Assembly (NCBI GenBank): GCA_963924555.1
Contig: OZ004592.1
Location: 5,642,001-5,706,000 of the forward strand
Origin: Crambe crambe
Lineage: Eukaryota; Porifera; Demospongiae; Poecilosclerida; Crambeidae
Length of the DNA stretch: 64,000 nucleotides
Direction of reading: 5' to 3'
Position numbers and translations under genes: made by a program. Below, in pieces: positions 24,104 to 51,657 of this stretch. A model generated the notes under the pieces. That model worked only from the letters and a program-made list of their open reading frames with translations. It did no database searches and was not told where the DNA came from. Every line of letters starts with the position of its first letter. Position 1 is the stretch's first letter.

Positions 24104-25757
24104 ATGGTTTTACCAATATTCTGTAGCTCTAGCGGCTTGAAAAGCCGTGGAAGCTATAGGAGACGTTTCCTGTCCCTTTGTGCTTCATATTTGCTCCATC
24201 CTCGTCTTCTGCTCTTTTTTTCCTTGATTCTTCTTGCCACCATCACATTCATGATGTTTTGGAATTACAGGATCACTTCCATTATTAGTACAACAACTAC
24301 TGGTGAGTGAAGAACAACCACCATAGCATGAGTAGTGCTTATAGTTAGTGTCATAGTTATGTGACTGTGTAGAACCCAATATAGTGGAACCCATTCAATT
24401 CATGATACACAGAATGCTTTTTTATGTTTCAGTATAATGAGGGACACCTCTCTAATCCAGGCACTTCTTTCCAGGTGTCTACATTGACACTATAGCATTG
24501 TATGTCAAGGACTGTGTGTGTTCTAATGTTAGTTTGGGAACTGAATCTGATGGCATTATTTCACAGCTGCCCAATTTAGTAATTAATTTAGTTCTGTGAT
24601 GTGTTTTCATCCCTCTTTATTGCTTCAGTGGAACTGCATACCATTACCTTGCACAGCATGACACAATATCAGGTGGGCTTCCCAGAAAAAGGATATCAGG
24701 TGTTCCAACTTAGAAAAGTGTTTTGGTGGTTAGATGGACCTTTGCTTATGTTGTCTAAGAATAACAAAATTTTATTTTGACTCCTGCTGTCTTTATGTAT
24801 ACAGCTGAACGGAACTATGGAGTGGTGATAGATGCTGGAAGCAGCAGTAGCAAGATCCATCTGTTCCAGTGGCCACCTCACGATGGAGACCCTTCAAAGC
24901 TGCTCACCATTAAACCTGTCACTGATGAACTGGGAGACCCTCGCATGAAGAAAGTGGAACCAGGTACGTAGTAGGCAATACAAAGTGGAGTGAGATGACA
25001 TGTGCCTTTGCATGTGAGAGTGTCTCACCTTTGCATGTGTTGTGCATGTGCTCAAGCTCACTAGGTTTCTCCCATCTGTTCCCCAACTGCTTCAGTGTCT
25101 TTCATGACAGGATGCCATCTGTCAAGTGAATGACCACACTACATACTGTTGTAGGACTGAGTTGCACCGGACACTATCTAGTTTCTTTAACCACATACCT
25201 GCATACATACCTTCCAGGTATAGCCACATTTGCCAGGAGCCCAGACACTGCTTTCACATCCATCCAGCCACTCCTTGAGTTTGCCCTCAATTACATCCCT
25301 TCCTCTCGCCACCAGCACACTTCTCTCTACATCTTCTGCACTGCCGGTATGAGACTCCTCCCCAAACAGGACCAGGAGCGCATCGTGGATGTCCTCTATG
25401 AGAAAGTATCTAAGAAATACCCTTTCTTCTTACCTAAAGACGGTGTTCAAGTGATTTCTGGGAAGCTTGAAGGTGTGTGTGTTTGTGTGTGTAGGGAACT
25501 ATGGAAGGTCCTTTTTTATGCCTGTCATATTTATACAGGTGTATTCAGTTGGATATCCCTCAACTACTTGCTTGGACAGCTGAGCCCAGGGCACCAGCAT
25601 GGTATGGACAAGTCTGTCCCACCACTCTCATCGACTCCTCTGGAAGTGGAAGTCAGTGGTACTGAGGAGGAAGTCTCTCAAATCAAGACCGTTGGTTGTT
25701 TAGACATGGGTGGAGCTTCTTTACAAGTGGCCTTTGAAATATCCCCAGATGTGAGAG

Positions 25758-25822
<65 letters not shown>

Positions 25823-28013
25823 AGAGGGGTTTGGTCTTGAGACTATCGACTTGTTCTGCTTCAGGTGAAGATTTCTCCAGACTACACAGTGGACATCAAC
25901 TTAGGGTGTGGAATTAGTGGTCCTCAGGGGAGCCAGCACAAACACAGGATCTTCGTCAGCACTTACCTTGGATATGGCACCAATGAGGCTCGCACGAGAT
26001 ACTACGAGCACCTTCTCAGCACCCATTTGGAAAAGAGGTACATGTAGAAATGATGTTGTAGTAATGAGCCATTGTTTGCATATATTTGCTCTACATTGAT
26101 CACCCCTTAAAAACTGCTAATATGACCATTATACCAGTGAAGAGCTATTCAGGACAACTTCAATTTGCCCCATAGGTGCTAATTTCACTGCACAGTTTCA
26201 TGTACATTGTCCTGAAAGAGGACCATACAAAATAACTTCCAAATGAGATAACCTCTCTACAAAGGATAAAAGGTTGGGACCCTAAGTGTGTCCAGGTTCC
26301 ACTGCAGTACCTAGTACTCTTCTAACGTACCCCACCTGTTTGCCTTTCCAGTAACCAGAGCCACTTTGACTCAAATGTTCACCTGCACTCCATCCGAGAC
26401 CCCTGTGCTCCCTTAGAATCCCTGGAGAACATCAGCATCAGAGGCCACACCCTCAAGATCCGGGGGTTGGGGGACTTTAGGGGGTGCAAAAAAGCACTGC
26501 TCCTCCTGATGCAGAACACTAGCAGCACTACTGACAAGGGCTCTGGTCAGGAGTCACAGTCTCAAGCTCCTTGCAAGGAATCTGACCGAAACTGCAGCCA
26601 CATTCTCATTTTCCAAAGGTAAGTCATTAGAAGTATTGAAATTTTGGTACCAGAAAGAAGTAACCTTGATAGAAAGTTGTCCTTATTTCGATGTTAATAC
26701 ACACAAGTGTCCTTACAGGGTGTGAGGAGTTTCAGTACTTCCAACTTTTTCGCGAACAGATGGAGAGACGGTGTTTTTAGGGGATGACAGCATGATAGTT
26801 TGGCAGAAAGGGCTAGGGCTAGGGTTTCGTTATTTGAGGGATTTTTAGGGCTAGGATATTGTTATTTGAGGGGATGACAGCTATGACAGACAGTTATGGC
26901 AGAAAAATGTCCTAGTTCTGGAATGGTGTTAATGTTCCACCGTACGCAATGTATCTGGGTGAGCCAATAATAACAATTGCACTTAATAACCACAGGCCAC
27001 CTTTTCCCTTCAAGTACGAGTCTCTGGACTTTTATGGAACGTCAGAGTTTTGGTACACCATGCGAGATGTGCTGAGGATTGAAGGCCACTACACTGCTTA
27101 TAGCTATGAGAGAGCTGCCATTGACTACTGCCAAACCAACTGGAAGGTCCTGCTCAACAGGTTCAAGAGGAACTTGTACCTCTATGCAAATTATTATCGT
27201 CTAAAGTGAGTATAGTCATTCAATACATATCATGAGAGTGAAAAGCTATCCCATTGATTAGTTGTGACTACAAATGGTCTTATCCATTAGTTTCTGTAAC
27301 ATAAACAGATGGGTTTCAGATTTTGATACAGAATATGCTCACTTCCAGGAGCCAGTGCATGAAGTCAGCATGGCTATCACTGATCCTCCATGAGGGACTC
27401 GGCTTTCCCAGGGACACCATTTCTCTCCATTCTGCAGCCAGCATTGATGGCCAGAGTGTGCAGTGGGCTCTTGGAGCACTCCTCTACAACACCAGATTTC
27501 TACCACTAAGGTATATATTGATGATGACCCTTTACCATAATTATTTAGGAAGTGACGACCCTTTACCATAAAATGATGTATTATAGGGAAGTGCAATTGC
27601 ATCAGTTGAAATCACCTCCCACCACTTCTCACTGGGAAGTTCCCTATCTCTCTTCCTTTATCCACTCCTCCTTCCTCCTACCTTTCCTCATGGTCCTCTC
27701 CGTCGCCCTTCTCCTCCTCTGCTGTCGACATCGGACAAGGCCACACCCTAATCCCCAGGACACCACAGGGTCCACACATGATGGCCTGCATCACAGCCAG
27801 TCACTGAACACAATGCTAAAACTGCATCGAAGAACAAGTTCCATGATGGGATCAGGCATACACATTGACATGCTGGACATCTCAGATACAGCTGGAAAGG
27901 GTAGAACACTGGGAGATGTTACAGGTGGACTTGGGGCTTCAGGGACTACAGGATTCGAGTTCAATAAAGAGGATAGGAATTGGAGTAGCAATAGACTGAA
28001 ATTCACAATCTAG
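24104..28013 (+). CDS. ENTPD4: Golgi/lysosomal apyrase, ENTPD4/7-like, 687 aa
   Basis: Nine exons join in phase: 24104-24302, 24805-24963, 25218-25472, 25539-25750, 25865-26037, 26352-26618, 26996-27205, 27349-27510 and 27587-28013. The enzyme hydrolyses nucleoside di- and triphosphates in the secretory-pathway lumen. Topology is that of ENTPD4/7: an N-terminal membrane anchor (about residues 33-55), a lumenal apyrase domain and a C-terminal TM helix (about 575-597) with a short cytosolic tail. Apyrase conserved regions are visible: VVIDAGSSSSKIHLF (ACR1), YIFCTAGMRLLP (ACR2), GVFSWISLNYLLG (ACR3) and CLDMGGASLQVAFE (ACR4), plus ENTPD4/7-specific DFYGTSEFWYTMRDVLRIEG and GALLYNTRFLPLR. ENTPD4 and ENTPD7 are vertebrate co-orthologues, so the symbol is approximate. 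AATAAA lies 7 bp after the stop, at 28021. Confidence 0.92.
25764..25819. repeat. (GA)n microsatellite in ENTPD intron 4
   Basis: About 28 GA units occupy half of the 114 bp intron between exons 4 and 5, starting directly after the donor GTGAGAG. Confidence 0.95.
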
Positions 28014-28229: not shown

Positions 28230-31200
28230 TCAGGTTTTCTCTCTGTCCATTGGCCTTGTCTGTTGATCTTCGACAATCTCTCTTCCACTCCTGTATGAAT
28301 CTCTTCCTCTTCCACTGGCACTACCTGGTTCCACCCCCCGAAACAACTTCCCCCTGGTGCTCCGCTTCTTCTTTTTCTTCCTATAACTACTCTTCCATTC
28401 ACCCCCATCTTTTTCGCCTCTCTCACGATCAACCGGAAAGGGTCTTTCAGCACCTCCCCTAGTATTGCTAACATCACTAGCTCGGACTGGACCCAAATCT
28501 TCTCTGCATCTCACTGAGTGAGTCTTGTACTTTTTACTATCACCAGCACCACTCTGTCTAGTTCTGCTCTTGTCATCAAATGCACAGAAGCTCTGCTGCC
28601 TACTCACAGGTGAGTGACTTTGCCAATCTTGCTTCCTTTCCTTCTCTATTCTGTTCTTATCAGGCAAAATCTCGCTATCTTCAACACATTTCTTAGGTGG
28701 TGTGGCTCCCTTTTCAGTTAAGAAGACATGGAAATCTCCTTCATCCATATCAAAGTTATCTGTGGAAACTTCAAATTCTGGCTTTCTTTCAAAGAATTGC
28801 TTGTCCAGTTTCATACTTACATCCCTGGACAAGATTTTAGCAAGATTTTCATCTTGAAGGATTTCACTGAAAAATCTTGCTCGGTTATTGTTTGTTAAGA
28901 TACTAACAAGTTCTTCAACAATTTCTTTCTCCAATTCACTTCTGGATACTGAAGGCAACTCTGTGAATTTCTCGCCTGGTTTCTGAATCTTGGAGCTCTT
29001 TTTGCTAAGTGACTTGAGTTGAAAGGAAGTGAGAGTGATGAAAAAGTCCCTGCCACTCTGGTAGCACTGGAAATGATCCGGGTTGTCCCAGAAAAAGGTG
29101 GAATCGATATGGTATGAGATTTGGTATTTGTTTCTGTATAAGTTGATAAGTCTCCTAGGAGTGAGACGGCCATGTCTTAGCAGCTCACTTTGGCAAAATT
29201 GCATAAAATGGCTGCTGTAAGGAAATGGTGGAGGCTTACTGAGTAGTTTCCAGCTCTTTGAGCGCTTCTTTGTGACTTCTGGAGGAGAATAGAGCTTTCT
29301 ATCAGGAAGGCTCTTCACAGAGAGAGCACTGCTCGATTTCACACAAAAGTCTGGTTTGTTGCTGTCAAATTCCAAGGTATGGGACTCACATTCTTGCTCT
29401 GCCACATTCTCATACTGGCTACCATAACTCTCACTCAGAGCTGAGGAAGGTTGAATCAAGACATGTGTAATTTCCTCTCCTACAGGAAGTGATTCTACAT
29501 CAGATTTATCCATATAAGGTATAAAGGGTTTCCCATCTTCAACAGTAGAATACTGATGCAAATCCTCGTCTTTCTCATAGTCCTTTTCCCTTTCTAATGA
29601 ATCCCACATACATGTAATAGTGTCCTTCTTAGTAGAGATTATATCGCATTTCTCTTTCCCTCCACTACAAACAGAGATTTCCTCAGTCAGTGCTTCTCCC
29701 ACAATCAACACATCACCAGATTTGGTTATCTCTTGTCCTTCTTCATATTTTTGTGGACTCCTTTTGGCCTCTGCTGCATCTTTGCATGGACTAACAGAGG
29801 ACTTCAGTACTGACTGCAACCACACACCCTCCACACCAGCAGTATCCACTGCCTCATTCTCTTCCCGAGATGTTGCCATGTTAACATCATTGTCACATGG
29901 GCTAGTGGATGACTTCCATGCCCATAAATCCTCATTGGCTACACCCACTACCTCACTCTCACCTTCCTGCTGCCTCAAACAAGTCTCTGGAGTGGTTTCA
30001 TTGCATAAGCTAACCGATGACTTCCAGACAGAACGAGACCAAGAGTAGTCACTCAACCCACCTTCTTTTCTCTCCAGCTCTCGAGGGAGATTACTGTTGT
30101 GAAGTGGGCTAACTGAATGCCTCCACACGGGTCGAGAACCCACCTTATCTTTGATAGCAATATTATCACCTGCACTCGATGACCGCTTGCGGTCTACACC
30201 AGCACCAGTTCTTACCTGTTTGGGATTCTTCAATTCAGGCCACACCTCGGCATAAAGGTTGAACTCCTTCATGGGTGATAGAGTGGTCTCTCCTGAGTGG
30301 AAAATATGGTGAATTGACAGTGGAGATGTTGAATCAGTTGGCAATGGCATGATATTCTCCAGGTGGGCTTCATTTGGAGGAACAACCATAGCAACATCTT
30401 TGAGGTTAGCGCCACACAGTACATCTTGATGCTTGACATCAAGAGATGATTCCATTCCTTCAGGAGGAAGAACACTCGAGGATGACTGCATAGCTGAAAG
30501 ACCTTCAAATGGCTTAGAAGCAGCCCCGAACTCGCACTTGCAAGTCGTGCTCTCCTCAGTTCCAATAAAAGGCTGTTGATGTTTCTGTTGTGGTAAATCA
30601 GAACTGGTGTACATTTCATGCAAGTCCTCATCACTGTCCAGTGGTTTGCCAGCTTTTCGATTTGAAGCTAGCAACTCAGGCCACGAATGAGAACTCAAGT
30701 CAAAACTGGGAGTTCTCTGCACAGGAGTGGATTTCAAACAACTGCACTGTTTGGGTTGTTGGTCTTTGAGTACATTCACTAAATGTTTTCCACTTCCTGA
30801 TACCACCAAACACTCAGAACTTCCAACACCTGAAGATTCTTTTGATGTCGGATCCTCTAGTGAATTAGACACATCTGCAGAAGTTTGCTCCAATGATGAC
30901 AAGTTAGGGAGGGCTTTTTCGGAGGTTTCTTTCAGTGGCAGTTTCGAAGTCACATCCAAATGACCAAATGGCATAGATTTTGCATGCTTCACTCTCTCAA
31001 TTGACTTCAAAGCTACGGCCAAATCTTCCTGAGAAGTGATTCCATAGCGACAGAGTGCAGTACACAGTTCCGTCAAAACAGAGTCAGATGCACTCCTATT
31101 GGCTGTGTCAGAAATTCCCCTGGGAGGTAATGATTCTTCATTAACAATCTCACCAGATCTATAAGGAGGTAGTTGAGAAAAATGTCTACATTGACCACTT

Positions 31201-34200
31201 GCACTACTCACAGAAGTAGTACCAATACCACTTCCTTGAAGCTCTGAAGCACTATCTGTACTCGACTTTACCAGTGGGGAAATACTTTGATCATCTTCTT
31301 TTGCACATTCTTCTTGCTCAGGTGGAAGTCTCTCTCTCACTTCTCTATCATCTTCAGTAGCATCTTGGAGTGCACCACCATCATCCACATCAAAGTTACA
31401 CACTTCACCGGTTGAAGGTGATACCAAGACATCTCGTGACTTTTCTTGTGTACTGGTGAAAGGTGACACAAAGACTTCTCTTGTCTTCTCTTCAATATTG
31501 GAGGAAGGTGACAGCAAGATCTCATCGGTAGATGCCGAAACTTCTTGTACTTTCTCTCGAATATTGGTGGATAGTGAAACTTGTGCTTTCTCTTGCACAT
31601 TGGTGGATAGTGAAACTTGTGCTTTCTCTTGCACATTGGTGGATAGTGAAACTTGTGCTTTTTCTTGCACATTGGTGGAAGATAATTTCTCTTGCACGGA
31701 GGTCGATGCTGAAACCAAGACACTTCGTGATTTCTCTTGTGCACAGGCTGAAGTGGCGTCTCGTGGTTTCTTCTGCATGCGTTCAGCAATAGTTTTCGCT
31801 TCTGTTTCTTCCAAGTTCAGACCTTCCTTCAGTGTCACCACACCATCATAACTAATACTGAAGATTTCAGAACGGTTGGTTAGAAAGGAGATCGGTAAGA
31901 ACTCCATTGGTCCAGCTGGGGGTCTACCACTTGAGTTAAGTAGAAACCAGTATACTGGTCCACACAGGAGTTTCAGAGGACACACCCCAACAGTTTTCAA
32001 ATAGTGGTACAAAAACCGCACCACAAACTGATCTCTGATTCCAAGTGTCTTATGGTTTGGCAACTTGGACTTTCTGCCCCTGGAAAGAGGTGCTGCTGGT
32101 ATACCCCAAATGTTGCTCACTTCAGGAATGTTTTCTGCACTGAACATCTGGCGGACAGGCCAAGGCTTGCTGAGTAAGTCATTATTGATTGTCAGTGATT
32201 CTCGAGGTGAATCTCCTGATATCTTATTGTAAACAAGAGCAGGGTCTACTCTATTCGAAGCACAGAAGAGGTTCGAGGTCCATGGTGGATGCCGATAACG
32301 AGCGTAGTATTGATTAGTGAAAAATGCTGATAGACTTCGCTGCTCCCTCTCCTTATTCGATATCTTTTTTCTCCTCTTCCTCTCATCAAGAATTTCCCCT
32401 TGGGTAGTGCCATGATTTTGCTGCACTGCTAAAGGTGGGAGTGGCATACATATAGGACTCGTATATCTACATGTCACTCTAGCCTTGTTTTCTTGAAAGG
32501 ATACATGAGAAGCTCGACTCAATCGAAGTGCGCTATCACTTTGACTTGGAGGTGTCTGCAGAACCGAGTGCCTCCCACTTGCATCAGTATCCTTGAAAGG
32601 GTAGAGCAATGGTATAGCCATACATGGAGGACACAGGGATGGCTTTCCTGTGTGGTGGTGTACATTATTTGGATTTGGAAATAAATGATGCCCACCAGTC
32701 CTAAAAGGTAGAGAACTCGAATGTGTGATCCCACTTGCAGTACTGGTAGTGGGGGAGCCATCTTTCAGAAATGTGGCAGTTGGACCCCGTTCTTCGATAC
32801 TACAACTACTCATGGTCCCAGCAACAGAATCACTACTACTTGGATCTGCATTCAATGTATCATGGCCAATAGACGTGTTCTTTTGGTGGTCAAGTTCATC
32901 CAACTGCTGGCCTCCGGTAGTTGGTCTCTGGTTTTTCACTTCATCAGGACCCATAGTAGCACTCTTGATTTCAGTTCCACTCTTAGCTTCTGAAGCTTCC
33001 TCCATCGAAAAAGGTTGAAATACAGCAATTCCAGTCTGGGGTTCTGGTTCTGGTTCCACCTGAGCCTGGGGTTTCGGTTCCTCTTCAATCAGGGGTCCTG
33101 GTTCCACCTGAGCTTGGGGTTTCGGTTCCACTTCAATCAGGGGTCCTGATTCCACCTGAACCTGGGGTTTTGGTTCCACCCGGAGTGATTTCTTCTCTTC
33201 AATTTGGCATTCTTCCACTTCGGTCTTGCAATCTGGTTGGGTCATCTGAGCACAGTCAACTATTTTAGCCTGTATTTCCATTACACCAGTTTGTGGTTCA
33301 ACCACTCTAGCAGCCCGAGAGTCAGTTCCCTTAGACTCTTCCTCTCTCTGAATCCAAGAGTCAGATTTCTGAGACTCCACCATTCCAGTGATAACTTCAC
33401 TAGACTCTTTCTCTCTCTGAATCAAAGGGTCTGCTACCAGTTCAGCTTCAGCTGCAACTTGCAACTTTTTCACTTCAGCCTGATCATAAGCTAGAGCAGG
33501 CTGGCTGCTATCACCTCCCCTCTTCCAGAGCAGCTGGTTGAAATTTTTCATTAAGGCTGTAAAGAACTGTATATATCTCTGAAGATGTTCTTGGCTGATG
33601 TCACTTGCTCTTGTATATGGATTCAAGAGCTCAGAAAGAGAAGGGTGAGATGTGGGGCCATAATTAGACTCTCTATTTACAGTAGCATTGATTGCAAGTG
33701 TCAAGGGATTGAATAGGCTGTGGCTAGGTGAGTGTATGGGTCCAAATCCAGGAAAAGTGGGAAAGAGTGAGACCAGATGAGAAATATCGAAACTGTATCG
33801 ATCGGCCATGGGACTTGGATGGGTTGGTTTACGCTGGAACAATTCTAGATTTGTATTGGAGTCCAATCCTTCGATAGTGGGGAAATTTCCAGCAAGAAAG
33901 GTAGGCGTTAGTCCACTTTGCCGCTGGGCATCAAGATCACTTTTGCAAACTGTAGTGGGTGGAATATGAATCTGCTCTGATTTAGAATGGGAACAAGAAC
34001 TGATTTCTTTATGTGATACCATATTCGTCATTGCAGCAGTACTGGGTGGAATAGCAGTGACCATACCAGAAGGCTGGAATGATTTGGCCAGAGGAGACAA
34101 CTTGAAATGTGGACGTTGTTTTAATTTGCTTTGCTTATCAAGAGAGTACACAACAGATTCCTTAAAGGCCTCGTCAGTGCAAAAAAGCTTACTGATCTTT

Positions 34201-37200
34201 AGCTGATCCTCTGGAATCTTACTAACTTCCACTTTACTCAAAAAATCACAGCTGATTTGGGGGTAATAGCAGAAAGAACTGAGAGAAGGATACTCAAACT
34301 CTTCAGTAAAGCTCTCTTCTTCCCCAGATTCATTTTGATACATCACAGCATCCCATTCTAACAATGCAAACTGGTTCTCCGAGACATCTTTGGATAGATT
34401 AAACAAGTTCCCTGGACTTCTGCTCAGCACACAGTCTAGCAGTGAATGGATCCTTGCAATTTCTTCCATAGGAAACAAAGCCTCATCTTCACCATAGTAA
34501 CAGAGAACGACAGAGATAGCTTTCCGAAGGGCATTGATTCTGATTAGATCGTCCCGAGTCAGGAATTGCAATTCATTAAAGGGCACAATAAAGTTGTTAA
34601 AGCTCATGCTAATGATGTTCTCTGCTCGTTTATCCACCAAAAATTTGATGCTTGAATTGTGTGGCTGGAAAGCAAGTAAGAGAAGGAGACCCAAACAGCA
34701 GTCTCCACAGTTGGGGAGAAGAGTAACATCCCTTGCAGTGAGGAAATTCCGATTATTACCGCCCTGCATAGTTGCTGTGACTCCAAGGAAATGTTTGGGT
34801 TCCCTACCCACACTAATGGCACAACAGGATGGCTGCCTCCAGTTCACCAGAGATGCCGTTTCGCTATGTAGACTCAACCTGTTCCAGTGCACAGCCAATG
34901 GGTGGTGTGGTCTTGTGAACTGTTCCTTGATACCTTGAACAGACCATGAAAACTTACGTTCACCAAACTGCCAGAAATGGACCATATCTGGTACAATCTT
35001 GTCCTTGACAATGGAAGTTTCCGTCATGAATGGATTCCAAGAACTGTTTCCAGTTTCAGTTTTGATAATATTCTCACCCCGAGCGAGTGCCTGCTGGACC
35101 ATGAGATTTGTCTTGGGGTTGGTTCCAAATTTTGGCACGAGACTGATATAACCTGTGTTTCCATTAATCATCACACGGCAGTTTTGATGAGGAAGGATGC
35201 TTAAAGTCAAAAGGTCAAGAGACTGAAGGGTAGGCTCTGGGAGGTCATTCATCACAACAGTATTAGCTGGATCCAAGCAACAGTCTTTCATTGTATTCAA
35301 TACTTTAGTAGCTCGCTTTCGGATGTTTGGGTTTTCAGAATTCACTTCCTGGCAACCAATGATTAGCTGATTGGTAAATGAAGCTACCAATAGTGCTTTC
35401 ACAACCAAGACATTGCTGCAAACATGAATGTTGATTTTGTGAAGATGTTTTTTCTTGGTGGATTCATGCAACTGGGCAATTCCTCCACTACTGTCAGTTA
35501 GAGATACAAGACTCATAAGTTCCCTGTAGATCTTATGGTCTTTGGGGAGATAAATGCTGGCTCTGTTTGCAATGTGTGCCACGGAAGTCTCCAACTGAAG
35601 CAATCTCTCCCAACGAATGGCATTGTTCTTGCAAAACGCTCGAATCAAGGCATACTTGGAACGAATCGATGATCCAGTGAGGTGGCTGTTTCGAAATTCA
35701 ATCCAGTCACGAAACATGTTGCACACCATCACAGAGTCACTGTATTGCCCCCTGTCAAAATAAGCACGTGATTCAGTACTATTCTTTAACTTGTAAGAGT
35801 ATGCGCTTGCATTCTTGATAACAATTCGACTGGGAAGAGTGAAGACATCTTGATAAAGAGAAAGGGAGGCAGCTATCGTAATTCCTTCAAAAGGAATGCC
35901 AAAAAAGATACTAAATAAGATCAAACGACTGAGAACCAGGTCTACAGGAAGTGAGAGACTGAAATAACCAATCAAAGTGATGTCAGCTTCTTCATTTACA
36001 GATCCATCACCAGAACTCGTGATGGCACCGAGCTCAGCAAGATCATTCAGAGCAGATTCCATCTGTTCCAAGGAAGGTCTTTCAATGGCACTGCATAGGA
36101 ATTCAGATGGCGATGACATTCCCAGCTTCCCACCAATCACCTTGGCCTGAAGCACAAGTCTAGCCAATGGAGAGTTCATAATTTCAGGCTGGTCATATGC
36201 AGGAAGAATAATCTCATAAAACTGCCTCGTGAAGAGGTGGATAGCCACTCCGTTGAAGACTCTGCCAGCTCGACCTGCACGTTGGGCACAGGAAGCGTGA
36301 GAACACCACTTCTTCTTCAGACAGGATATCCTCCTTTTCTGATCGTACTGGAGCTGGTGGTAGATCCCAAAGTTGATCACCATACGAAGTTTGGGGAGAG
36401 TGATAGAACTCTCCGCAATATTTGTGGCAAGGATGACATGAACAATATCTGAAGGTGGATCCTTGAACGCATCCTTCTGGTCTTCAAGGGGAACCTGGGA
36501 ATGAAGAATGAAAACTCTGAAGTGATTAGCCAATTTGTTCTCCTCAATCCATTCATGAAAGGATTCGAAGTATTTTGAGATGGAGGAGATGCCAGGCATG
36601 AAGACAAGTATCGACTCTCCTAACTTGCACTGGGATACAATGATGTACGTGCATAAAGAGGTTGCCATATCTGTCACCATTGGAACGGACTTCATGGCGG
36701 CTTTCAAATTTTCACGAGGCATGGTTTTGACCATCGCACGGAGGGCTTTACATGCTATATCCTGTCTTTGATGCCAGTAGGACGCATCTGCTAAGGAATC
36801 CAATTCATCCATAAAATATGTTTGCACTGGATAGCGCTTAGTGCCCACAAAGTATGGGGAAGAAACTTTGGAAAAATGAAACTGCTCTTCAAAATACTTC
36901 ACTAGCAGGTTCCCCTGCATTGTGGCAGACATAATTATGATTTTTTGGCTCCTGCTCTCAGCGACCAATTTCCTGATAACTAGCATAGCAAAGTCCATGT
37001 CGGTTGAACGCTCGTGTATCTCGTCCAGAATGATGTGGCTATACCACTGAATGGCAGCTGGGTGATGGATAAGGACCTGTGTAAATAAAGACACACCATT
37101 AAAACTGTGCTATTACTGCAATTAAAATGAAATTTTTTAATGTTTGAGGCCCAAACTTTTTTTATCATTGTTGCTGTTTGACTCACTTAATCTACATCAT

Positions 37201-40088
37201 GCAATCAGGGTTTTGTAGAAAAGAAAACTCAGTCTATACAGGAATTGTGGCACGAAAAGCCCTAGAACCTCCCTGTTATCACAGTAGCACACACAACTCA
37301 CTTGCAATAGATATCCCACAGTACAGTAAGTCAGCATGGTTTTGGCAGCACGATGATGCTCTCCCCCGACACAGTAGCCTACTATCTTTCCCACCTTCTC
37401 ATTCCTCTCTGCAGCAACTCTCTCTGCCAACTTAATGGCTGCTACTCGACGTGGTTGGGTCACTATTATTCGACATAAACCAGGCGATTCCTTGCTGATA
37501 GCCTCATCTAGGATGAACTGAGGGACTTTAGTAGACTTTCCACAACCAGTCTCACCTTCAATACACACCACAGTGTGATCACGGACTAATTCCAGAATCT
37601 TGGAGCGATGTTCCATGATGGGTAGCTGTGGTTCTGGGATTTTTGGTTTGGAGGTTTTCTTTCTTCTCTTCAGCAGACGAGTGCTAACTTCAGGAGTAGG
37701 GGAGTCTATAACCAAGACCGATGGTTCCTTTTTAGCTTCGGAGTTTTTGATGTCCTTTGACACAGTATTATCATCTTCATGTGTGCTTTGGAAAGGTGTG
37801 CTTGAAATAGAGTCATCAATTGCCCCCTCGCTTATCACTGATACTTGATTTCCCTCCACGAGCACACCTTCATTGCACTCCAATTCAAAAAAATCACTGT
37901 TAAGTTCATCACCTGACTCCATATCACAATCTTGGTACAGACTCTGACTGGAGAAATAGTGATCCTCTTCTGTTGCAATGCACTCTTGTGTCGAGGATAA
38001 TTCCTTTCCGTCCAGAGAATGCTCAGAATCAACTCCACTGAGCACACTCTCGTCCAAATCAAGCACGAACCCACAACCTTCTGCATTTGGAATCCAGCAT
38101 TTCGAATTCACAGACTCTCCCTCCTTCACCAGTTCCAACAGTGTCACATCTGTAGCCACTTCATTTACAGCTGAGTTACAAAGGTCAGTTATGCTCGATA
38201 TTGAAGGAATACATTCTTTAAGAATTTCAGCACGTAATTGGAGAACTGGCGGGAGCTCCCAAATCCTCCGATAATAATCACAAGCTTGTTTGAGCTGAGA
38301 ACTGGGACACGCACTGTGATCTTGTTTTGTGCTTTCTTCGTGTTCTTCACAAATATGGCTAGCAAGGTGGAAAGGAATGTAACTATGAGCAGAAAACAAT
38401 GCTCCAGGGGGTGGAAGGTCACATGACAGTCCCAGGGAAGAAGCAAGCCAGTAGATCTGGTCTATTAGATGAGAGAACCATGAACTCAGTGTAACTGCTT
38501 TGCCAGAGGGGAGATCTGGAATACTGAAGGGTGGGTGGTCAACTATGCAACTCAAAATGGTCACCATTAGTGCCTCTAACTCGCAAATAAACACATTCAG
38601 AGAAGGAAGCATTCTCAAGTTGGCCATTTTCATAAAAATCAGAGATGAAAAGAGAAGGACCGCTCTGCTGTCTATACATTCAATTCCCTTAACATCTCTC
38701 GTTGCTTTGGACAAAAGTTGTTTCAATTCACCATCTTCCTTCAGCACATGTGGATATGTCACACTATGATAAAGAATACAGAGTTTTTCAGTTGTAGACG
38801 AGGCATGAATTTGCTGCATACCGTCGTTAGCAGCACAAGCCAAACTCAAAGGTATCTGCACTAAGCTGCTGCTGGCAGTGACACGACCCAATTCTGTGAC
38901 ACTAGTGAGTCCCATAAGAGCGTATATGAACATTCTGATGAGAATGGTGACATCATTGAAACAAGGATGACTAAGAACCTCGGGCTCGGTCAAAATGGGT
39001 CGCCAGTACCATCCATTTACAATAGACGTCATCCGACGTGATAAGAATCCCCCTGTAGATATGAAAGATGACTCCTTAAACAAAGGGATAGGTGACTTTT
39101 CTCTCAAGTAGACTTCATAAGAAGCTTGCATTCCGATTTTGAATTTAGGATACTTCTCAAGAAGCTCCTTCATTTCACTGAGGCTTGCATCTTGGCCACG
39201 AATCCACTCGACGATTGCTGAGAGCTTGGAGTTTGTTACACCCAGGGTTCGCAAAAGCTGAGACTTGTGATCAAATGATTGGGTGTACTCATTGCCACAC
39301 AGGACAGCCAGGTCTGCAAGCTGTGGTACGGAGAGGTCAAGAGAGCTAGCAAGCCATGTACTCCACACAACTTCACAACTCAAATCTTGCTCAGAGTCAA
39401 AAGCAGGGAGAGTGGGTGAGGGTTGGTGCACATCTAACCCAAATAAATCAGGCAAAAACAGCCCACAACCAGAAACTATGGCATAATTAGTGTTGGTGGA
39501 AAGAATACCACAAACATGCTTATTGCTCCTCAAGTATGAAACTGCCTCGGAAGCAACTTTCCCTTTACAATACACCAAGTCAACATTCTCAGCCAATTCC
39601 AGCAAATATATCACATGGCTGATAACACCCTCCTTTAAGCTCCACTTGACCTGTGACATCTCTCGACGACCAGCACAAATCTGCAGGACATCAACACACT
39701 CGCTGACCTTCTTGCTATAATCAGCATGACAAGCATCATAAAGAGCATCTGTCTTGTCAATACAAAAAGGAGACTCTTCCACACAAAATATCACTTTCAA
39801 ACCAAGACTTTCAATAGCTTTAACAAAACTGAGGACTCTGCTGCCATAATTTTTCAATGACCCACCATATATCAAGCTGTATGGAGACTCCTTACCACTC
39901 TCAATCAGTGCATAGTCACAGCTGGACAGAAGCCAGTTCAGCACAGGGAGGAAGTCACACAGGATTTCTGGTTGTTTTCCTGTCCTCTCCAAGTGGGCTC
40001 GGGCGAACTGACGGAGCTGGACCTTCTCCCGCGTGGAAGGGTTATTCAAGATGTACTTCGATAGACCTTGCACTCCTGGATGTCCCAT
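28230..40088 (-). CDS. PIN(FAM120-like)-DEAH helicase(TDRD9-like)-LOTUS fusion protein, about 3877 aa
   Basis: Two exons, 40088-37302 (929 codons) and 37076-28230, join in phase across a 225 bp intron (donor CAA|GTGAGT, acceptor ACAG|GTC) inside the helicase core. Residues 1 to about 420 resemble the XPG-fold PIN region of FAM120/asteroid proteins (MGHPGVQGLSKYI start, LAVLCGNEYT). A DEAH-type RNA helicase follows: Walker A GETGCGKST near 845, TQPRRVAA, DEIHERS near 946, SATMQGN near 978, TNIAESSIT and QRAGRAGR near 1190, then HA2-like sequence; spacing is closest to TDRD9. The rest is mostly disordered with Pro/Glu and Ser-rich repeats, plus two winged-helix segments that look like LOTUS/OST-HTH domains (about 2610-2680 and 3550-3610), ending in an Arg/Ser-rich tail. 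Probably an RNA-processing or small-RNA factor. The 8.8 kb second exon is open throughout. Confidence 0.88.
31560..31680. repeat. 36 bp coding minisatellite in the helicase gene
   Basis: Three near-identical 36 bp units encode STNVQEKAQVSL repeats in the disordered part of the helicase protein. Related, more diverged units continue on both sides (about 31420-31760). The unit is a multiple of three, so the frame is kept. Confidence 0.9.
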
Positions 40089-40243
40089 TTCCTTCGAACT
40101 TGTTACCCCATTCGCTATCCCTTTATATTAAAAGGACTTAATTTTCAGCACACATTCAGTGAGACATTCACTTACTTTTCAAAGCACTTCTACTCTCACA
40201 CGAAATAACTCGACAAAAAAATGCAGCTGCCCAATTATTTTCA

Positions 40244-40256
40244 CACGTGCCACGTG
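40244..40256. promoter_or_regulatory. Twin CACGTG E-box in helicase/GH57 divergent promoter (unit A)
   Basis: CACGTG occurs twice with a 1 bp gap (40244-40249 and 40251-40256) inside the 220 bp between the helicase start (40088, minus) and the GH57-like start (40309, plus). The pair is preserved in unit B at 51592-51604. Tandem E-boxes suit bHLH-ZIP factors of the MYC/USF/MITF type. A GCGCATG element follows at about 40289. Confidence 0.5.
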
Positions 40257-41239
40257 GTCGAAATAGTGCTTACGTGGTATTTTCTAATGCGCATGACAAA
40301 ATTAGGAAATGGAGAATTTCTTCTTATTGTGTTCAATGCTGTCAGTAGGATGTGGTGCTAATGTTCATACTACATACCTATGGTCAGTTTTCTGCCTATG
40401 CAAAAGGTAAAATTTTTATTGTGATTTTGTAGGCACATGCAGCAACCTATATATTGGCCAGCTCTGCTTCCTTCCAATAATAATACCTACCAGAAAGCGT
40501 ATGATTCCATCCAGCTTAAATCTTCACAAGGTGGTCACCCTAGGGACAACCTAGATGATATTTTTGGAAAAGGCGAGTTCACCCAGCCTGCCCCACTCCT
40601 GAATGAATCACTGTATGCATACTTACTCAGATGACAGAGTGAACGACTACCAGCATTATGGACTGGATGCAGTACAAAGCTGCTCAAAGTACCCAGACAT
40701 GGGAGCACAGGTTAGGTAACTTACATACAATGAACATACCCATGAATATTATGATACATTCATCCAGTAGCCATGTAGTCTTCTCTAATTATTTGAAATG
40801 TCCCTATTATAGGGCTAGTAGGGCTAGGGCACTAGAGCTAAAGTGTCCTTTCATGAGGTCCGCGTACTCTATGGCTATAAAATCACACTGAGGCAACAAA
40901 TAACTCCTTTCTTCTTTAGATCAGCTTCAGTGGGTGTCTGATTGAGAACTTGAATAATTTGGCAGAGAACAACCACATCTATGCTCCTGGCTGGAGTGAA
41001 AAATACAAACAAGGAATGAATGACCTCACTACGTCAGGCGGCTTCATGAAACTTGATTTTGTGTCCTTTACCTACCACCATGCCCTTACTACCCTCATTG
41101 ATAGGTATGTTTACTCTGGTATCCTACATGATTAAAGAGGTTTTTCTTAATCCTGTTGTCTTCAGAAATGCCTTGGATAAGGAGATAAGCATCCATAAGT
41201 TGATTTATGACAAGACTTGGGGACACAAGTATTCAAAAG

Positions 41240-41565
41240 GTCCAATGTTGTTAAGCCAAAGAAATTTCCTGTTTCTCATTTCATTCCTCATGCACCTCAG
41301 CTCATCAGAAGGTTCTCTCCAGTGAAACTGATCAGAGCGGTGCTTGAATACCACTTGTGGCTATTGTTCAACCACATGAAAGAAAAATGAGATCCATTAA
41401 AGTGGTGTTGCACCTCTCTAACACCCTTTGGGGAGAACCCTGCGATAATAGTCACATGCTGCATTGTTGTTGTTGTTTTTTGTTGTTGTTTGGATGATTT
41501 AGGAATAAGAAACAGTTAATAATGGAATGATACATGCTCGTTTACACATACCTACGTACATACAG
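41240..41565. other. Intron 5 of GH57-like copy A, conserved interior
   Basis: The intron contains a stretch (about 41320-41460) that is well conserved in unit B (52540-52730) and, read in either direction, gives a short open frame. It is followed by a GTT-rich run. It may be remains of an older insertion; I see no splice sites that would make it an exon. Confidence 0.35.
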
Positions 41566-41686
41566 GTTTTTTCCCAGCTGAGATGGTGTTCACTGAACGG
41601 GCCATCCCTGTGCTGGTCAAGCAGGGCATTGAGTGGGTCATAGTAGCCAACAATCACATATCTAGGGCCTGCAAGGTAAGAGGCTC

Positions 41687-41717
<31 letters not shown>

Positions 41718-42004
41718 CCCCCTTCTCCACATCCCCTGAACTCTTAAGTCTGTGTGAACCTGACCCCTGATCACATCTTGAACCCTTCAATATGAACCCT
41801 CAGTCTGTGAACCAGACCCCTCCCCCTCCCCTCCCAATGAAATGAAGTCTCTAATATGAACTCTCCCCTCCCTCCCTCCCTTCTATGACTTCCAATCTTT
41901 TCTTGATTCCCTCATAGAATTATCCTTACTCTCCTCATGGTGATAACAACAGTCCTCCTAACCGTGCAGATCAGGTAAACCAAGTTGTGTATAGTAGGAA
42001 TATT

Positions 42005-42165
42005 CTGATGCGTAGTTAGGGATATGTATGTATGTCTGATGCGTAGTTAGGACTATGTATGTATGTCTGATGCTTTAGGGCTGTGTATCTATGTCTGATG
42101 TGTAGTTAGGGCTGTGTATGTGTATGTATGTATGTCTGATGTGTAGTTAAGGGCTATGAATGTAT
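42005..42165. repeat. Intronic minisatellite, unit about 31 bp (TGATGCGTAGTTAGGG core)
   Basis: Four to five imperfect units built on TGATG(C/T)GTAGTTAGG plus GTATGTATGTC fill intron 7 of GH57-like copy A. The same array with a different unit count lies at about 53325-53490 in copy B. Confidence 0.8.
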
Positions 42166-42614
42166 GTAAGTGTATTCATTCATTGTCTATGCAGGTCAAT
42201 CCTGAACAATCATCCTACTTCAGTGAATCTGTTTCCAGGGGTTGCACTCCAAACAACGCACACCCATTTTCATATCGCCAACATGTGGATCCGGAATCTG
42301 GGAATATCTCCAAGATAATAGTCGTTCCTGCCGCCATGGTAACTAGTAAATTATACCATGGTAACTACCGCGTAACTAATGGGAAATGTTGATATCATGA
42401 TTGTGGACTGTGGATAGTATAATGTTAATTTTATCCATTGCTTCAGGCTATGAGCTGGCTCGACGGTTATGAGTGCTATAGCACTTCAGACATAGACAAG
42501 ATAGCCGTTTCATCTGAACAGGATCATCCGGTTTTGGTCCTGCTTGCTCACGATGGAGACAACGCCTTTGGTGGAGGTAACTCTTACTATCAGCAGTGTG
42601 TCAGCGGTTTTGTC

Positions 42615-42905
42615 AATGAGGCAGCAAGCAAGGTGAACTTTATAGCCAAATATGAGGTTGTGAATGAGGCTATCCAAACATTATGAGGAAAGTGAACTCT
42701 GTACCCAAGGAATTGAGCTTGAGGCAGAAAGCAACATGAACTCTGTACCCAACATTATGAGGTTGTAAATGAGGCAGCAACCAAAGTGAACTCTATACCC
42801 AAACATTATGAGGTTGTAAATGAGGCAGCAACCAAAGTGAAACATTATGAGGTTGTAAATGAGGCAGCAACCAAAGTGAAACTCTATACCCAAACATTAT
42901 GAGGT
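42615..42905. repeat. Minisatellite seeded by the exon 9 donor of the GH57-like gene
   Basis: The last codons of exon 9 and its donor (AATGAGGCAGCAAGCAAG followed by GTGAAC) recur downstream as AATGAGGCAGCAACCAAAGTGAAC in several units of about 35-52 bp with ACCCAAACATTATGAGGTTG between them. The array sits wholly inside intron 9. Copy B has a shorter version at about 54030-54230, where a hAT-type element then inserted. Confidence 0.8.
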
Positions 42906-43723
42906 TGTTTAAGCCATTTCTTCAATCCAGAAATGACTGGTAACGAGTTTTTATTCTTTAATAGCTTTTGGATACGTGGAAACATTACAATCAATATGCA
43001 TAGGATTTTTATGGAGGGAAATTTTTTGTGGGTTTCATGAATTTGTATAGTTCATGCACCCACGAAAATTTGACACTTATTGGTATCATGTGTACCCGGG
43101 GGTATGTCGCCACCACAATCCAGCAGTACTTGGGCCAGTATCCAGTGGATGAGAAGGACGTAGTACATGTGGAAGATGGCGGCTGGATTAACCCTGATGG
43201 AGACTTCGGTTCACCACAGAGTCTCAACTGGAATTGGCCACTCATCCCAAATAATGCCCAGGTATGATGTATCATAATTTAAAATGTGTTTGTTTAAGTA
43301 GCAAGAACTTTAGGGTAAGATAACGATATTGTAATCAAAGCAATTTCCCTTCCCAATTAACACAACACATTCATATAATAAAAACAGCAATCTCCCTTCC
43401 CAATTAACGCAACACAATTAATGTATGGATTGAGCAATAACAAGGCACCTGCAATATGGAATTTTACAGGCTGGTCAGTTTGATATTGAAAATGGTTGGT
43501 CTGTTGACGAGAGAAACTGGGCCATCTTGACTGCAGCTGAAAATGCTGTTGAAACTACTGAACAGGTATAATCAGGATAGTGGCGGAATTTGTGAAAAGC
43601 CTTTCCTTGTTGATGAACAATGGGGTGAGACTGAGTGAAGTACAGGAGCCCACGTCATCTGCCAATGTGTGTTATTGTATATTTATGTACACATATAATG
43701 CATACATGCGAGGGAAACAGCAA

Positions 43724-43801
43724 CACACACACACACACACACACACAGCCATATATTATTGTATTTTCATGCGAGTAATAACACACACACACACACACAC
43801 A
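43724..43801. repeat. (CA)n microsatellites in GH57-like intron 11
   Basis: Two CA runs (about 43724-43747 and 43779-43801) lie upstream of exon 12. The matching intron of copy B has only short interrupted CA runs near 56725-56797. Confidence 0.9.
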
Positions 43802-44807
43802 CTTCCCCTTTCTTACTCGCAGGGTGCTGAACTAGCCTGGCATTTCTTCTTGCCTGGCCTGACCTCTGGCTATATGTACTATGGTTCAGTGGAGGACATG
43901 CCAGTGAAGCAAACCGTTGCGGCCAACATTGCTGTCTCATACGCCACCAAGTTCATAGAATAGTCAGTCACATGACGTCCTTATTATCCAATCACCATAC
44001 TCTGTCCATACCGTACATAAATGACAGGTGCAAGTGTGCCGATCAGACTCCTCCCACTGTTTGGACATTACAGCGGTTGCCATGGAACCCAGGTGCCTGT
44101 GGCAGGGAGAACTCTGGGGGTATAAGTACACACCCATGCCTAAGTAGGCGGAGTCACCACACCCACATAGAGTGTATATTATCTAATTCCAATATCCTCT
44201 CCGTGACTTCTATGTGTGGACCTTCATTTATGATGTTTCTGGTGTGAAATCCGTGCTCTTCAACTACAGGATGGACGAGGATGGTTTCAATCTAATAGAT
44301 GACAATGCAAATGAGGTTTATCTGTCAGGTATGGCTTCTCTAATCTTGTTAGATCCAATTCTGAAACATGGAGCAGTTAACGTTATGTAAGATGAATTAT
44401 TGATGTGTGACCGATTAGCAGTGCCATTCTGAACTAATCCAACTGCTCAATAATGGAAGTTCCTGATTACAACTTACTTTGTATGCTGTTTTTAATATAT
44501 TCATTTTTGTAGTGGAAGATGACTATGAATAGTCTGTTGGTATATACATGTGGTAGAAGTTCAGTATTGTACGGTGAGCTTTTGGTCATGTGTTTAATAA
44601 CATCCTTCCATGAGATATGGGAGCAGAATTGGCCAGAGAGTGAATGCATCATTTCTACCTGGGACACTGATGTTGGTATATAAACATTGTAAAAGCATAC
44701 GTAACAAGTTTCAATATCATAATGGAATATTATTCTTTGAGTGTTTGGCTTCTGCATGTGTACATAGAGTTACTGCAAGTCTTCATTTGAGCGAGTTAGT
44801 ATATATC

Positions 44808-49594: not shown

Positions 49595-50154
49595 TGTGGT
49601 CATGGAGAGATAACAGTGTGCGTACTTCTTAAATACAGATCCCAAAAAACTTTCAGTAATTTTCTTTAGTTATCAGAGTGCGGTAGCACTCTCTATGTAG
49701 TGATGACTCGGATGGCCGCGCGCGCCGCCTATAGACTAATACGAAAGTGAAATTCTAGTTCCCCCACTTAGACCTAACAAAAGCTACTGTGAATGATTAT
49801 CCAGCCTACTAGAGCCTACTACAATGTGCAGACCAAGTTTCAGGACCAGGGAGCTTACCGTTTCAGAAATACGGCAAGCAGGTAAATTGTTGGATTCTTC
49901 TTCTTCTCTATTATTATTATTATTATTCTTAGACAACCATATCTCTCGAACCACTCAAGCTACAGCTATGATTTATGGATAAATCCACTCCAAATTCAAC
50001 GAACTACGATCTTTTCTACTCGTTGATCCTCGAAAGAGTCGATGAAAAAGGAGACACTACGGAGCACAGCATAGCACTCGACTAATTCAGCCATCTTTTC
50101 TATAATACGCATGCACATATATTTGATATCCAATTATTCGAAATTATAATATAC
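49595..50154. other. Spacer between POT gene and unit B
   Basis: It contains a GC patch (GGCCGCGCGCGCCGCC near 49714), an ATT/CTT-rich run near 49900-49931, and a short exon-like stretch at 49810-49880 ending in a donor-like AGCAG|GTAAAT. No gene can be built from it. Confidence 0.45.
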
Positions 50155-51436
50155 TATGATAAAGAATACAGAGTTTTTCAGTTGTAGACGAGGCATGAAT
50201 TGCAGCACAAGCCAAACTCAAAGGTATCTGCACTAAGCTGCTGCTGGCAGTGACACGACCCAATTCTGTGACACTAGTGAGTCCCATAAGAGCGTATATG
50301 AACATTCTGATGAGAATGGTGACATCATTGAAACAAGGATGACTAAGAACCTCGGGCTCGGTCAAAATGGGTCGCCAGTACCATCCATTTACAATAGACG
50401 TCATCCGACGTGATAAGAATCCCCCTGTAGATATGAAAGAGGACTCCTTGAATAAAGGGATAGGTGACTTTTCTCTCAAGTAGACTTCATAAGAAGCTTG
50501 CATTCCGATTTTGAATTTAGGATACTTCTCAAGAAGCTCCTTCATTTCACTGAGGCTTGCATCTTGGCCACGAATCCACTCGACGATTGCTGAGAGCTTG
50601 GAGTTTGTTACACCCAGGGTTTGCAAAAGCTGAGACTTGTGATCAAATGATTGGGTGTACTCATTGCCACACAGGACAGCCAGGTCTGCAAGCTGTGGTA
50701 CGGAGAGGTCAAGAGAGCTAGCAAGCCATGTGCTCCACACAACTCAAATCTTACTCAGAGTCAAAAGCAGGGAGAGTGGGTGAGGGTTGGTGCACATCTA
50801 ACCCAAATAAATCAGGCAAAAAAAGCCCACAACCAGAAACTATGGCATAATTAGTGTTGGTGGAAAGAATACCACAAACATGCTTATTGCTCCTCAAGTA
50901 TGAAACTGCCTCGGAAGCAACTTTCCCTTTACAATACACCAAGTCAACATTCTCAGCCAATTCCAGCAAATATATCACATGGCTGATAACACCCTCCTTT
51001 AAGCTCCACTTGACCTGTGACATCTCTCGACGACCAGCACAAATCTGCAGGACATCAACACACTCGCTGACCTTCTTGCTATAATCAGCATGACAAGCAT
51101 CATAAAGAGCATCTGTCTTGTCGATACAACATAAAATATCACTTTCAAACCAAGACTTTCGATAGCTTTAACAAAACTGAGGACTCTGCTGCCATAATTT
51201 TTCAATGACCCACCATATATCAAGCTGTATGGAGACTCCTTACCACTCTCAATCAGTGCATAGTCACAGCTGGACAGAAGCCAGTTCAGCACAGGGAGGA
51301 AGTCACACAGGATTTCTGGTTGTTTTCCTGTCCTCTCCAAGTGGGCTCGGGCGAACTGACGGAGCTGGACCTTCTCCCGCGTGGAAGGGTTATTCAAGAT
51401 GTACTTCGATAGACCTTGCACTCCTGGATGTCCCAT
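50155..51436 (-). pseudogene. 5' fragment of the PIN-helicase gene (unit B)
   Basis: This is a minus-strand copy of the first 440 codons of the 28230-40088 gene, from the start MGHPGVQGLSKYI at 51436 to the duplication edge. It covers only the PIN-like region, with no helicase. Three deletions relative to unit A are visible: about 16 bp near 51128, 8 bp near 50741 and about 18 bp near 50199. The first two shift the frame. It may still donate the divergent promoter for the GH57-like gene. Confidence 0.88.
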
Positions 51437-51604: not shown

Positions 51605-51657
51605 GTCGAAATAGTGCTTACGTGGTATTTTTCTAATGCGCATGACAAAATTAGGAA

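Follow-up and report, generated by a model that had tools for sequence, protein, structure and literature searches.

A putative fusion of an asteroid/FAM120-like region with a Spindle-E/TDRD9-clade helicase in the sponge Crambe crambe

Gene model and coding signal

The window, a stretch of 64,000 nucleotides from the Crambe crambe genome, carries a fusion gene on the minus strand at positions 40088-28230. It comprises two exons and encodes 3877 aa (Table 1). The intron borders read CAA/GTGAGT and TTTACACAG/GTC. The spliced product restores YLLQ-VLIHHPAA, which is alignable with Spindle-E; the unspliced reading from exon 1 to exon 2 runs into stops. Exon 2 is stop-free over 2948 codons. Among the 26 100-codon segments that do not overlap the training regions at all, the correct frame outscored the five other frames in 25; over the whole gene it did so in 38 of 39 segments. 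The sole exception among the 39 is a tandem-repeat stretch, aa 2701-2800, with a higher score for a reverse frame. The scan gave no sign of hidden introns in exon 2. The fusion gene is genuine and coding along its full length. An earlier note on this DNA had proposed a two-exon gene of about 3877 aa, and splice sites, open frames and coding signal bear this out. Its single intron within the helicase core was recovered as a 225-bp GT-AG intron (37301-37077) in RecA1, and the PIN-helicase join is exonic as claimed, with the head and the helicase start both within exon 1. A Microcephalin match at aa 742-829 (E 0.0011, below the cut-off of the Pfam model) and several further weak Pfam models in exon 1 were dropped.

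Table 1. Features of the fusion gene and of its decayed partial copy (window coordinates).
Feature	Position	Strand	Basis or remark
Exon 1	37302..40088	-	codons 1-929; ATG at 40088, open frame, GT donor at 37301
Intron (single, 225 bp, GT-AG, phase 0)	37077..37301	-	inside helicase RecA1
Exon 2	28230..37076	-	codons 930-3877 and stop TGA
Putative XPG/asteroid-like region, aa 1-345	39054..40088	-	hhalign to five same-genome asteroid-family proteins
Region collinear with C-terminal half of asteroid-family proteins, aa 346-600	38289..39053	-	shuffle test and alignment
Polar linker, aa 601-810	37659..38288	-	composition and coding signal
DEAH helicase with HA2-like extension, aa 811-1430	35574..37658, intron excluded	-	Pfam, PDB relatives, tree
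Post-Tudor-like C-terminal region, aa 1650-1830	34374..34916	-	alignment to own TDRD9-like gene
Long polar tail, aa 1831-3877	28233..34373	-	composition; short tandem repeats, basic RG-containing end
Short tandem repeats in tail	31414-31679 and 33046-33180	-	within the long polar tail
W[KR]xSxS[PL] (three times) and LKSSVSP (once), aa 3247-3360	29784..30125	-	spacing about 33-37 residues
Small hydrophobic island, aa 2610-2680	31824..32036	-	winged-helix-like by eye
Small hydrophobic island, aa 3550-3615	29019..29216	-	winged-helix-like by eye
Decayed tandem copy of codons 1-442	50153..51436	-	codon 234 is a stop; 16, 8 and 18 nt deleted

A tandem duplication affects the 5' part of the gene: positions 38763-47633 recur at 50153-63289. 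The boundary at 38763 falls within the head and is separated from the helicase start (37658) by about 1.1 kb. Head and dead copy differ by seven synonymous and three non-synonymous changes, at an expected non-synonymous share of 72-78% (P 0.002-0.007). This comparison, which spans 442 codons and 10 changes and could be mimicked by gene conversion between the copies, suggests past purifying selection on the head.

Helicase and asteroid-like head

The helicase module contains the motifs GETGCGKST, TQPRRVAA, DEIH, MSAT, LATNIAESSIT and QRAGRAGR and matches Pfam Helicase_C (5.2e-15). The best PDB relative is Spindle-E (9nhs_G) with 276.7 bits vs 235.4 bits for the next, a lead of 41 bits; with the short helicase portion of exon 1 alone, other DEAH proteins outscore Spindle-E. 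In a tree, the fusion, Spindle-E and a TDRD9-like gene of the same genome split from seven other DEAH sequences with 99%; the fusion sits on a long branch, and the seven include four that are near copies of each other. Sequence comparison thereby confirmed that the DEAH helicase is intact and belongs to the Spindle-E/TDRD9 clade. The TDRD9-like RNA helicase of the earlier note is upheld by the Spindle-E match and the 99% split. Long-framed DEAH genes on C16 were rejected as relatives: the scanned one is DEAH11-like, and those included in the tree lie outside the Spindle-E group.

The own genome assembly comprises 143 Mb in 119 contigs. The separate TDRD9-like gene, located elsewhere, has a Tudor domain, and its frame is uninterrupted at the site of the fusion's intron. 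With only about 41% identity to this gene and intact motifs, the fusion's helicase appears old and kept. After the helicase, aa 1650-1830 show a weak match to the post-Tudor region of the TDRD9-like gene (score attained by 4 of 1000 shuffles), and a TDRD9-type C-terminal domain is weakly supported. Pfam TUDOR had no match in the fusion at E<=10, and the Tudor of the TDRD9-like gene against aa 1430-1900 gave a score attained by 513 of 1000 shuffles, i.e. a Tudor domain is not detectable. The fusion thus shares with Spindle-E/TDRD9 the DEAH core, the HA2-like extension and the weak post-Tudor match. It differs in the undetectable Tudor, the long branch, and about 810 extra N-terminal and 2050 extra C-terminal residues.

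The head (aa ~5-445) aligned collinearly with five same-genome asteroid-family proteins over 383 columns, with an hhalign score of 32.7. For aa 1-660, this score was reached by 0 of 301 controls (300 shuffled versions plus the reversed one; highest score 26.9) and by 0 of 300 in a second set of shuffles (top 30.1), together 0 of 601 randomised heads. Tested separately, the scores of aa 1-345 and aa 346-620 (profile columns 328-423) were attained by 0 of 200 and 0 of 300 shuffles, respectively, and the register of the latter matches the N-terminal half. The likeness of aa 346-600 is supported to about aa 445 and past that point by eye. The best of 23 real-protein decoys reached 28.2 over 51 columns, and hmmsearch gave the head an E of 0.015 among 310 sequences. 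The hhalign probability for aa 1-660 was only 9.2-9.7% (E about 0.0035), vs 100% for all five true family members in a leave-one-out control; the likeness to the asteroid family is therefore remote. When the head was compared with each of the five proteins singly, the values were 0.1-4.9%. EXO1-like and XPG-like exons of the same genome reached 5% and 37%, respectively. A Pfam scan of the head had no match, including XPG_I_2, a model that does find other genes of this genome, nor did a PDB sequence search. A weak YcgN family match at aa 46-98 (E 0.08) was dropped.

An asteroid/FAM120-like XPG-type region is thus supported but remote. The claim of the earlier note stands in that no randomised head attained the score, and is tempered by the hhalign value of 9% and the missing Pfam match; the likeness does not separate FAM120 from asteroid. 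Mkt1, ASTE1 and FAM120 have been proposed as one class, and FAM120A has been described as a stress-granule protein (PMC12345631, in excerpt). Common to this class and the head are the MG...GxxxL start, collinear N- and C-terminal halves, and matching blocks around STNTNY, GNEY and IRMFIYALMG. Unlike the class, the head is diverged, several catalytic acids are replaced, and it is joined to a helicase. In the alignment, the asteroid-family SxDSDF corresponds to STNTNY, GND to GNEY, and DG to EE. The aligned catalytic positions are altered to E104, N199, N201 and E267, while E181 is retained; D45 is a possible first acid by eye only. The full metal-binding aspartate/glutamate set of active XPG/FEN1 enzymes is absent according to this remote asteroid alignment, on which the reading of an altered active site rests. 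Nuclease activity of the head appears unlikely because the aligned catalytic acids are changed. These exchanges had gone unmentioned in the earlier note.

The tail and the LOTUS question

The last ~2050 aa are probably mostly disordered. A crude composition measure gave 60-73% disorder-prone residues vs 51-53% in the other, globular modules. Two small hydrophobic islands had been described as LOTUS-like winged helices. Pfam OST-HTH did not match at aa 2600-2690 or 3540-3625 (E<=10), and a genome-wide OST-HTH search found seven places, six above the cut-off, the fusion gene not among them. Against a profile of the six same-genome LOTUS domains, the scores of aa 2600-2690 and aa 3540-3625 were attained by 42 and 18 of 200 shuffles, respectively. 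The leave-one-out controls reached 86-98% in six of six cases. At the sensitivity of these searches, with chance-level scores, the two LOTUS-like domains are not supported. The Egalitarian winged helix WH_Egal (PF23713) was considered for the islands; a search of the genome for it (E<=1) came up empty. PDB matches of the islands (antibody chains, viral envelope protein, tetanus toxin fragments, potempin and others) were short with E of at least 0.039 and were discarded. An own-genome paralogue of aa 2505-2690 was not found; a 36-residue match of aa 3540-3720 in C1 (E 0.245) was judged a chance hit.

Interpretation and alternatives

An asteroid/FAM120-like head followed by a Spindle-E/TDRD9-clade helicase and a tail, without LOTUS, is the likely architecture. 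The best explanation as a whole, one gene for a single chimeric RNA-handling protein that acts as a granule ribonucleoprotein remodeller, is about evenly balanced. The remodelling mechanism is tentative and falls somewhat short of even. The head with its decayed nuclease site would bind RNA or a granule partner, and would not cut. The ATP-driven DEAH motor may move along the head-bound RNA or strip it. The disordered tail could keep the protein in a condensate, substituting for the missing Tudor domain. Cytoplasmic RNA granules would be the site of action, and a tie to transposon silencing is conceivable.

In an unlikely alternative, the head acts as a structure-specific nuclease by means of a non-canonical metal site, and is one to which the helicase supplies unwound RNA or R-loops, a one-chain counterpart of the FAM120B (SAN1)-Senataxin pair. 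E181, E267 and perhaps D45 (by eye only) could still bind metal, and FAM120B is a 5' exonuclease working with the helicase Senataxin (PMC6030175, in excerpt). However, both SxDSDF aspartates are aligned to asparagines and the DG aspartate to glutamate, and the single exchange D90A abolished the activity of SAN1 (PMC6030175, in excerpt). It is rather improbable that the head has another fold with a chance resemblance to asteroid proteins and that the gene encodes a helicase of the Spindle-E type to which long novel extensions are added. The hhalign value of 9% vs 100% for true members and the missing Pfam and PDB matches favour this; the 0 of 601 randomised heads, and two halves that pass separately and in register, contradict it.

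A young, perhaps neutral chimera of unsettled function, a TDRD9-like retrocopy behind an intronless asteroid-type gene, also has a low probability. In its favour, the five compared asteroid-family genes are single open frames, the fusion's intron sits where the TDRD9-like frame is uninterrupted, and relatives of the fusion did not turn up in the prokaryotic and viral collections scanned. Against it are the identity of about 41% to that gene with intact motifs, 2948 stop-free codons, and the seven synonymous against three non-synonymous changes that separate the head from its dead copy. The claim that two tail LOTUS domains stimulate the DEAH helicase in cis is very improbable. While aa 3553-3585 resemble the initial portion of LOTUS (18 of 200 shuffles attain the score), OST-HTH is unmatched, and the profile scores are at chance level vs six of six strong controls. 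The claim also fits badly with published work: eLOTUS binds and stimulates the DEAD-box protein Vasa (PMC5458760, in excerpt), and Tejas without LOTUS left Spindle-E localisation unchanged, recruitment proceeding via SRS/eSRS (PMC10412688, in excerpt). A misjoining of neighbouring genes or alleles in assembly or gene model is extremely unlikely. The tandem duplication overlaps the 5' part, but its end in the head leaves about 1.1 kb to the helicase, and exon 1 is open there with a steady coding signal.

Comparable proteins are known. In the FAM120B (SAN1)-Senataxin pair, unlike in the fusion, two separate proteins are involved and the nuclease is active; Senataxin is not known to be a DEAH helicase. 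The likeness is the pairing of an XPG-type FAM120 protein with an RNA/DNA helicase (PMC6030175, in excerpt). MARF1 belongs to another nuclease branch, is without a DEAH helicase, and has LOTUS, which is unsupported in the fusion. NYN domains are PIN-like. MARF1, consisting of NYN nuclease, RRM and LOTUS domains, resembles the fusion in its nuclease-fold domain within a multi-domain RNA-silencing protein (PMC6294520, in excerpt). The statement that these modules occur only in separate proteins was too strong for nuclease fold plus LOTUS, given MARF1 (PMC6294520, in excerpt). A published head-helicase fusion was not found among the matches listed from open-licence PMC full texts. Prokaryotic and viral contig collections contained no relatives of the fusion, which is uninformative on animals.

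To our knowledge, the engagement of piRNA precursors by Spindle-E/TDRD9 and the roles of FAM120/asteroid proteins are poorly understood. The combination hints that nuclease-like and piRNA-pathway helicase types work together. In a speculative extension with little likelihood, the fusion is a 'Rosetta stone': asteroid/FAM120 proteins would be physical partners of Spindle-E/TDRD9 across animals, serving as a non-cutting RNA clamp in germ granules, fixed here as one chain. A natural one-chain fusion would suggest a direct and testable partnership between asteroid/FAM120 and Spindle-E/TDRD9, and also a granule recruitment alternative to the Tudor-based route.

Gene structure and helicase of the fusion

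The fusion gene was studied in an assembly of 143 Mb (119 contigs). An intron links its two long frames, and splicing recovers the helicase sequence ...GYLLQ/VLIHHPAA.... The protein has 3877 residues, in agreement with the earlier note. Codon log-odds scoring, trained on aa 1-600 and 811-1430, ranked the correct frame first in 38 of 39 scoring windows, including 25 of the 26 lying wholly outside the training regions. Only aa 2701-2800, a run of tandem repeats, broke this pattern.

The main DEAH helicase motifs are all present. Spliced aa 811-1816 scored 276.7 bits against Spindle-E (9nhs_G); DHX29 and DHX36 came next with some 235 bits. When only the exon 1 portion was used, Spindle-E scored 84.5 bits, below other DEAH proteins (best CG9323, 95.2). 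In a phylogeny of ten DEAH proteins built under LG+G4 from 454 columns, the fusion, Spindle-E and the genome's own TDRD9-like gene separated from the other seven sequences, four of which closely resemble one another, with 99% ultrafast bootstrap. Spindle-E paired with the own TDRD9-like gene (92%), while the fusion formed a long branch. The own gene comprises several exons with TUDOR matches. Its post-Tudor region, from hand-joined exons, aligns to about aa 1673-1787 of the fusion (equalled by 4 of 1000 shuffles); its Tudor gave no alignment to the fusion (513 of 1000 shuffles equalled the score). The fusion is a single chain that carries a DEAH motor and no detectable Tudor, and clade placement and the missing Tudor match identify it as a divergent second clade member without Tudor. 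A Tudor-gene survey covering Porifera gives TDRD9 one Tudor domain along with DEAD/DEAH, HELICc and HA2 (PMC12147562). The name TDRD9 is not applied, because one of its defining features was sought and not found.

The probable XPG-type head

The head had no Pfam match (aa 1-660) and no PDB match (aa 1-420, phmmer) at E<=10. A genome search with XPG_I_2 yielded six places, four of them in an asteroid-family gene cluster on contig C16, the remaining two in genes judged by eye to be EXO1-like and XPG-like. A profile of five C16 asteroid-family proteins aligned collinearly with the head (aa 1-660) over 383 columns, aa 5-445, with a score of 32.7. This was reached by none of 301 randomised sequences (300 shuffles and the reversed sequence; top 26.9) and none of a second set of 300 shuffles (top 30.1). 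Aligned separately, aa 1-345 scored 30.7 (0 of 200 shuffles; top 29.4) and aa 346-620 scored 32.7 (0 of 300; top 28.7), both in the register of the full-head alignment. Among 23 decoys taken from real open frames, the top score was 28.2 over 51 columns; eight other segments of the fusion reached 19.7 at most. The hhalign probability of the head was 9.2% (E 0.0036), against 100% for five of five family members in a leave-one-out control, 5.3% for the EXO1-like exon and 36.9% for the XPG-like exon. Matched singly against each of the five proteins, the head gave 0.1-4.9%; in hmmsearch the head ranked first among 310 sequences (E 0.015). These figures indicate likeness only at the wider XPG superfamily distance. 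Because of the C-terminal-half match and the shared order, the head is probably an XPG-type region of the asteroid/FAM120 class.

The alignment supports an altered active site. E104 is aligned with the family's DG aspartate, E181 with an aspartate of most members, STNTNY (N199, N201) with SxDSDF, and GNEY (E267) with GND. D45 is a possible first aspartate by eye only and is unpaired in the MAFFT alignment. If the alignment is correct, the changed acids make a working nuclease unlikely. FAM120B (SAN1) D90A lost activity and kept single-stranded DNA binding (PMC6030175); such binding without cutting is the behaviour proposed for the head.

A tandem segmental duplication repeats codons 1-442 in a dead form that has one stop and three deletions; its breakpoint falls within the head, some 1.1 kb away from the helicase. 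The copies differ by 10 substitutions in 1326 coding bases (0.75%), 7 synonymous and 3 non-synonymous, one of the latter being the stop itself. Without selection, a non-synonymous share of 72-78% is expected (P 0.002-0.007 for 3 of 10), which fits purifying selection on the head. In the upstream flanks, divergence is 1.3-3.2% close to the gene and some 5% past 41.5 kb. The drop from the far flank to the coding part suggests selection or gene conversion; conversion between the copies could contribute to the low coding divergence.

Tail and neighbouring loci

The C-terminal ~2050 residues form a polar tail that carries short tandem repeats and ends in a basic stretch with RG; a search of the own genome gave no paralogue. 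A recurring W[KR]xSxS[PL] element is possibly a repeated binding motif. The earlier note placed two LOTUS-like winged helices in the tail, where two small hydrophobic islands look winged-helix-like by eye. Scored with a profile built on six LOTUS domains from the same genome, the islands reached 12.3 and 14.0, equalled by 42 and 18 of 200 shuffles. Their probabilities were 0.5% and 1.1% (head 9%), compared with 86-98% for six of six true domains left out in turn. OST-HTH matched seven places in the genome, six above cut-off and none within the fusion; WH_Egal matched none. Two LOTUS domains are unsupported; a very divergent winged helix could still be present. The suggested action of LOTUS on a DEAH helicase also fits badly with two reports, in which eLOTUS binds Vasa (PMC5458760) and Tejas holds Spindle-E by its SRS/eSRS (PMC10412688).

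Downstream on the same strand lies a stretch with a candidate Tudor-domain gene; its TUDOR match reached 22.0 bits (cut-off 23). A Tudor-domain gene beside the Tudor-less fusion is possible. On C16, XPG-type and DEAH genes are linked within the same genome.

Positions of the fusion, its surroundings and other loci (within the window unless a contig is named)
Feature	Position	Strand	Remark
Exon 1 frame	from 40088	-	963 codons, read without splicing
Intron	37301-37077	-	GT-AG, 225 bp, phase 0
Exon 2 side	~37.1 kb to 28230	-	stop-free to TGA
Tail motif	29784-30125	-	W[KR]xSxS[PL] three times, LKSSVSP once, ~33-37 residues apart
Duplication	38763-47633, repeated at 50153-63289		tandem
Candidate Tudor stretch	about 23650-20268	-	downstream of fusion
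Tudor-like exon pair	23650-23417 + 23223-22993	-	by eye
TUDOR match	23050-23175		below cut-off
RG-rich open frame	21296-20886	-	
GDA1/CD39 nucleoside phosphatase frame	25130-25840	+	between fusion and Tudor-like neighbour
Repeated-frame array	44610-49594 + 57821-59509	+	623, 196, 515, 562 aa; in duplicated block; 623 and 515 aa without Pfam match at E<=0.01
Repeated frames, 544-555 aa	1-10058	-	two scanned: one PTR2 (POT transporter) above cut-off, one none
Own TDRD9-like gene	C13, about 6955938-6960644		
Asteroid-family genes/fragments interleaved with DEAH frames	C16, about 1.90-2.19 Mb		L020, L021, L023, L024, L026-L039, L044, L045; L044 (1565 aa, single DEAH frame scanned): DEAD, Helicase_C, KH_DEAH11, sub-threshold IBR
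SecA_DEAD-type ATPase	L043 (C9:1833000-1842900), 3360-9887	-	E 1.6e-33; in 3681-aa open frame; C9 is an 8.8-Mb contig of this eukaryote
Single open frame, 3325 codons	C15:2978457-2987768		14 listed TUDOR matches
Single open frame, 3301 codons	C15:4583376-4591493		13 listed TUDOR matches

Proposed function

The leave-one-out control of the head lowered our confidence slightly, and we hold the architecture of head, helicase and tail, without LOTUS, with high confidence. The best explanation as a whole is given an even chance, a little less than before that control, and its mechanism slightly under even. In it the protein would be an RNP remodeller: the non-cutting head would hold RNA or a granule partner, the DEAH motor would remodel the RNP so held, and the disordered tail would concentrate the protein in RNA granules. 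Two precedents make the model plausible by analogy: FAM120B has the helicase Senataxin as its partner (PMC6030175), and granule roles are described for the asteroid/FAM120 class (PMC12345631). Among the matches listed from open-licence full-text literature, none described an XPG-type head fused to a Spindle-E/TDRD9 helicase. The fusion is rated as a new domain architecture built of known families. Since a Tudor-bearing TDRD9-like gene is present elsewhere in the genome, it is probably a specialised extra factor.
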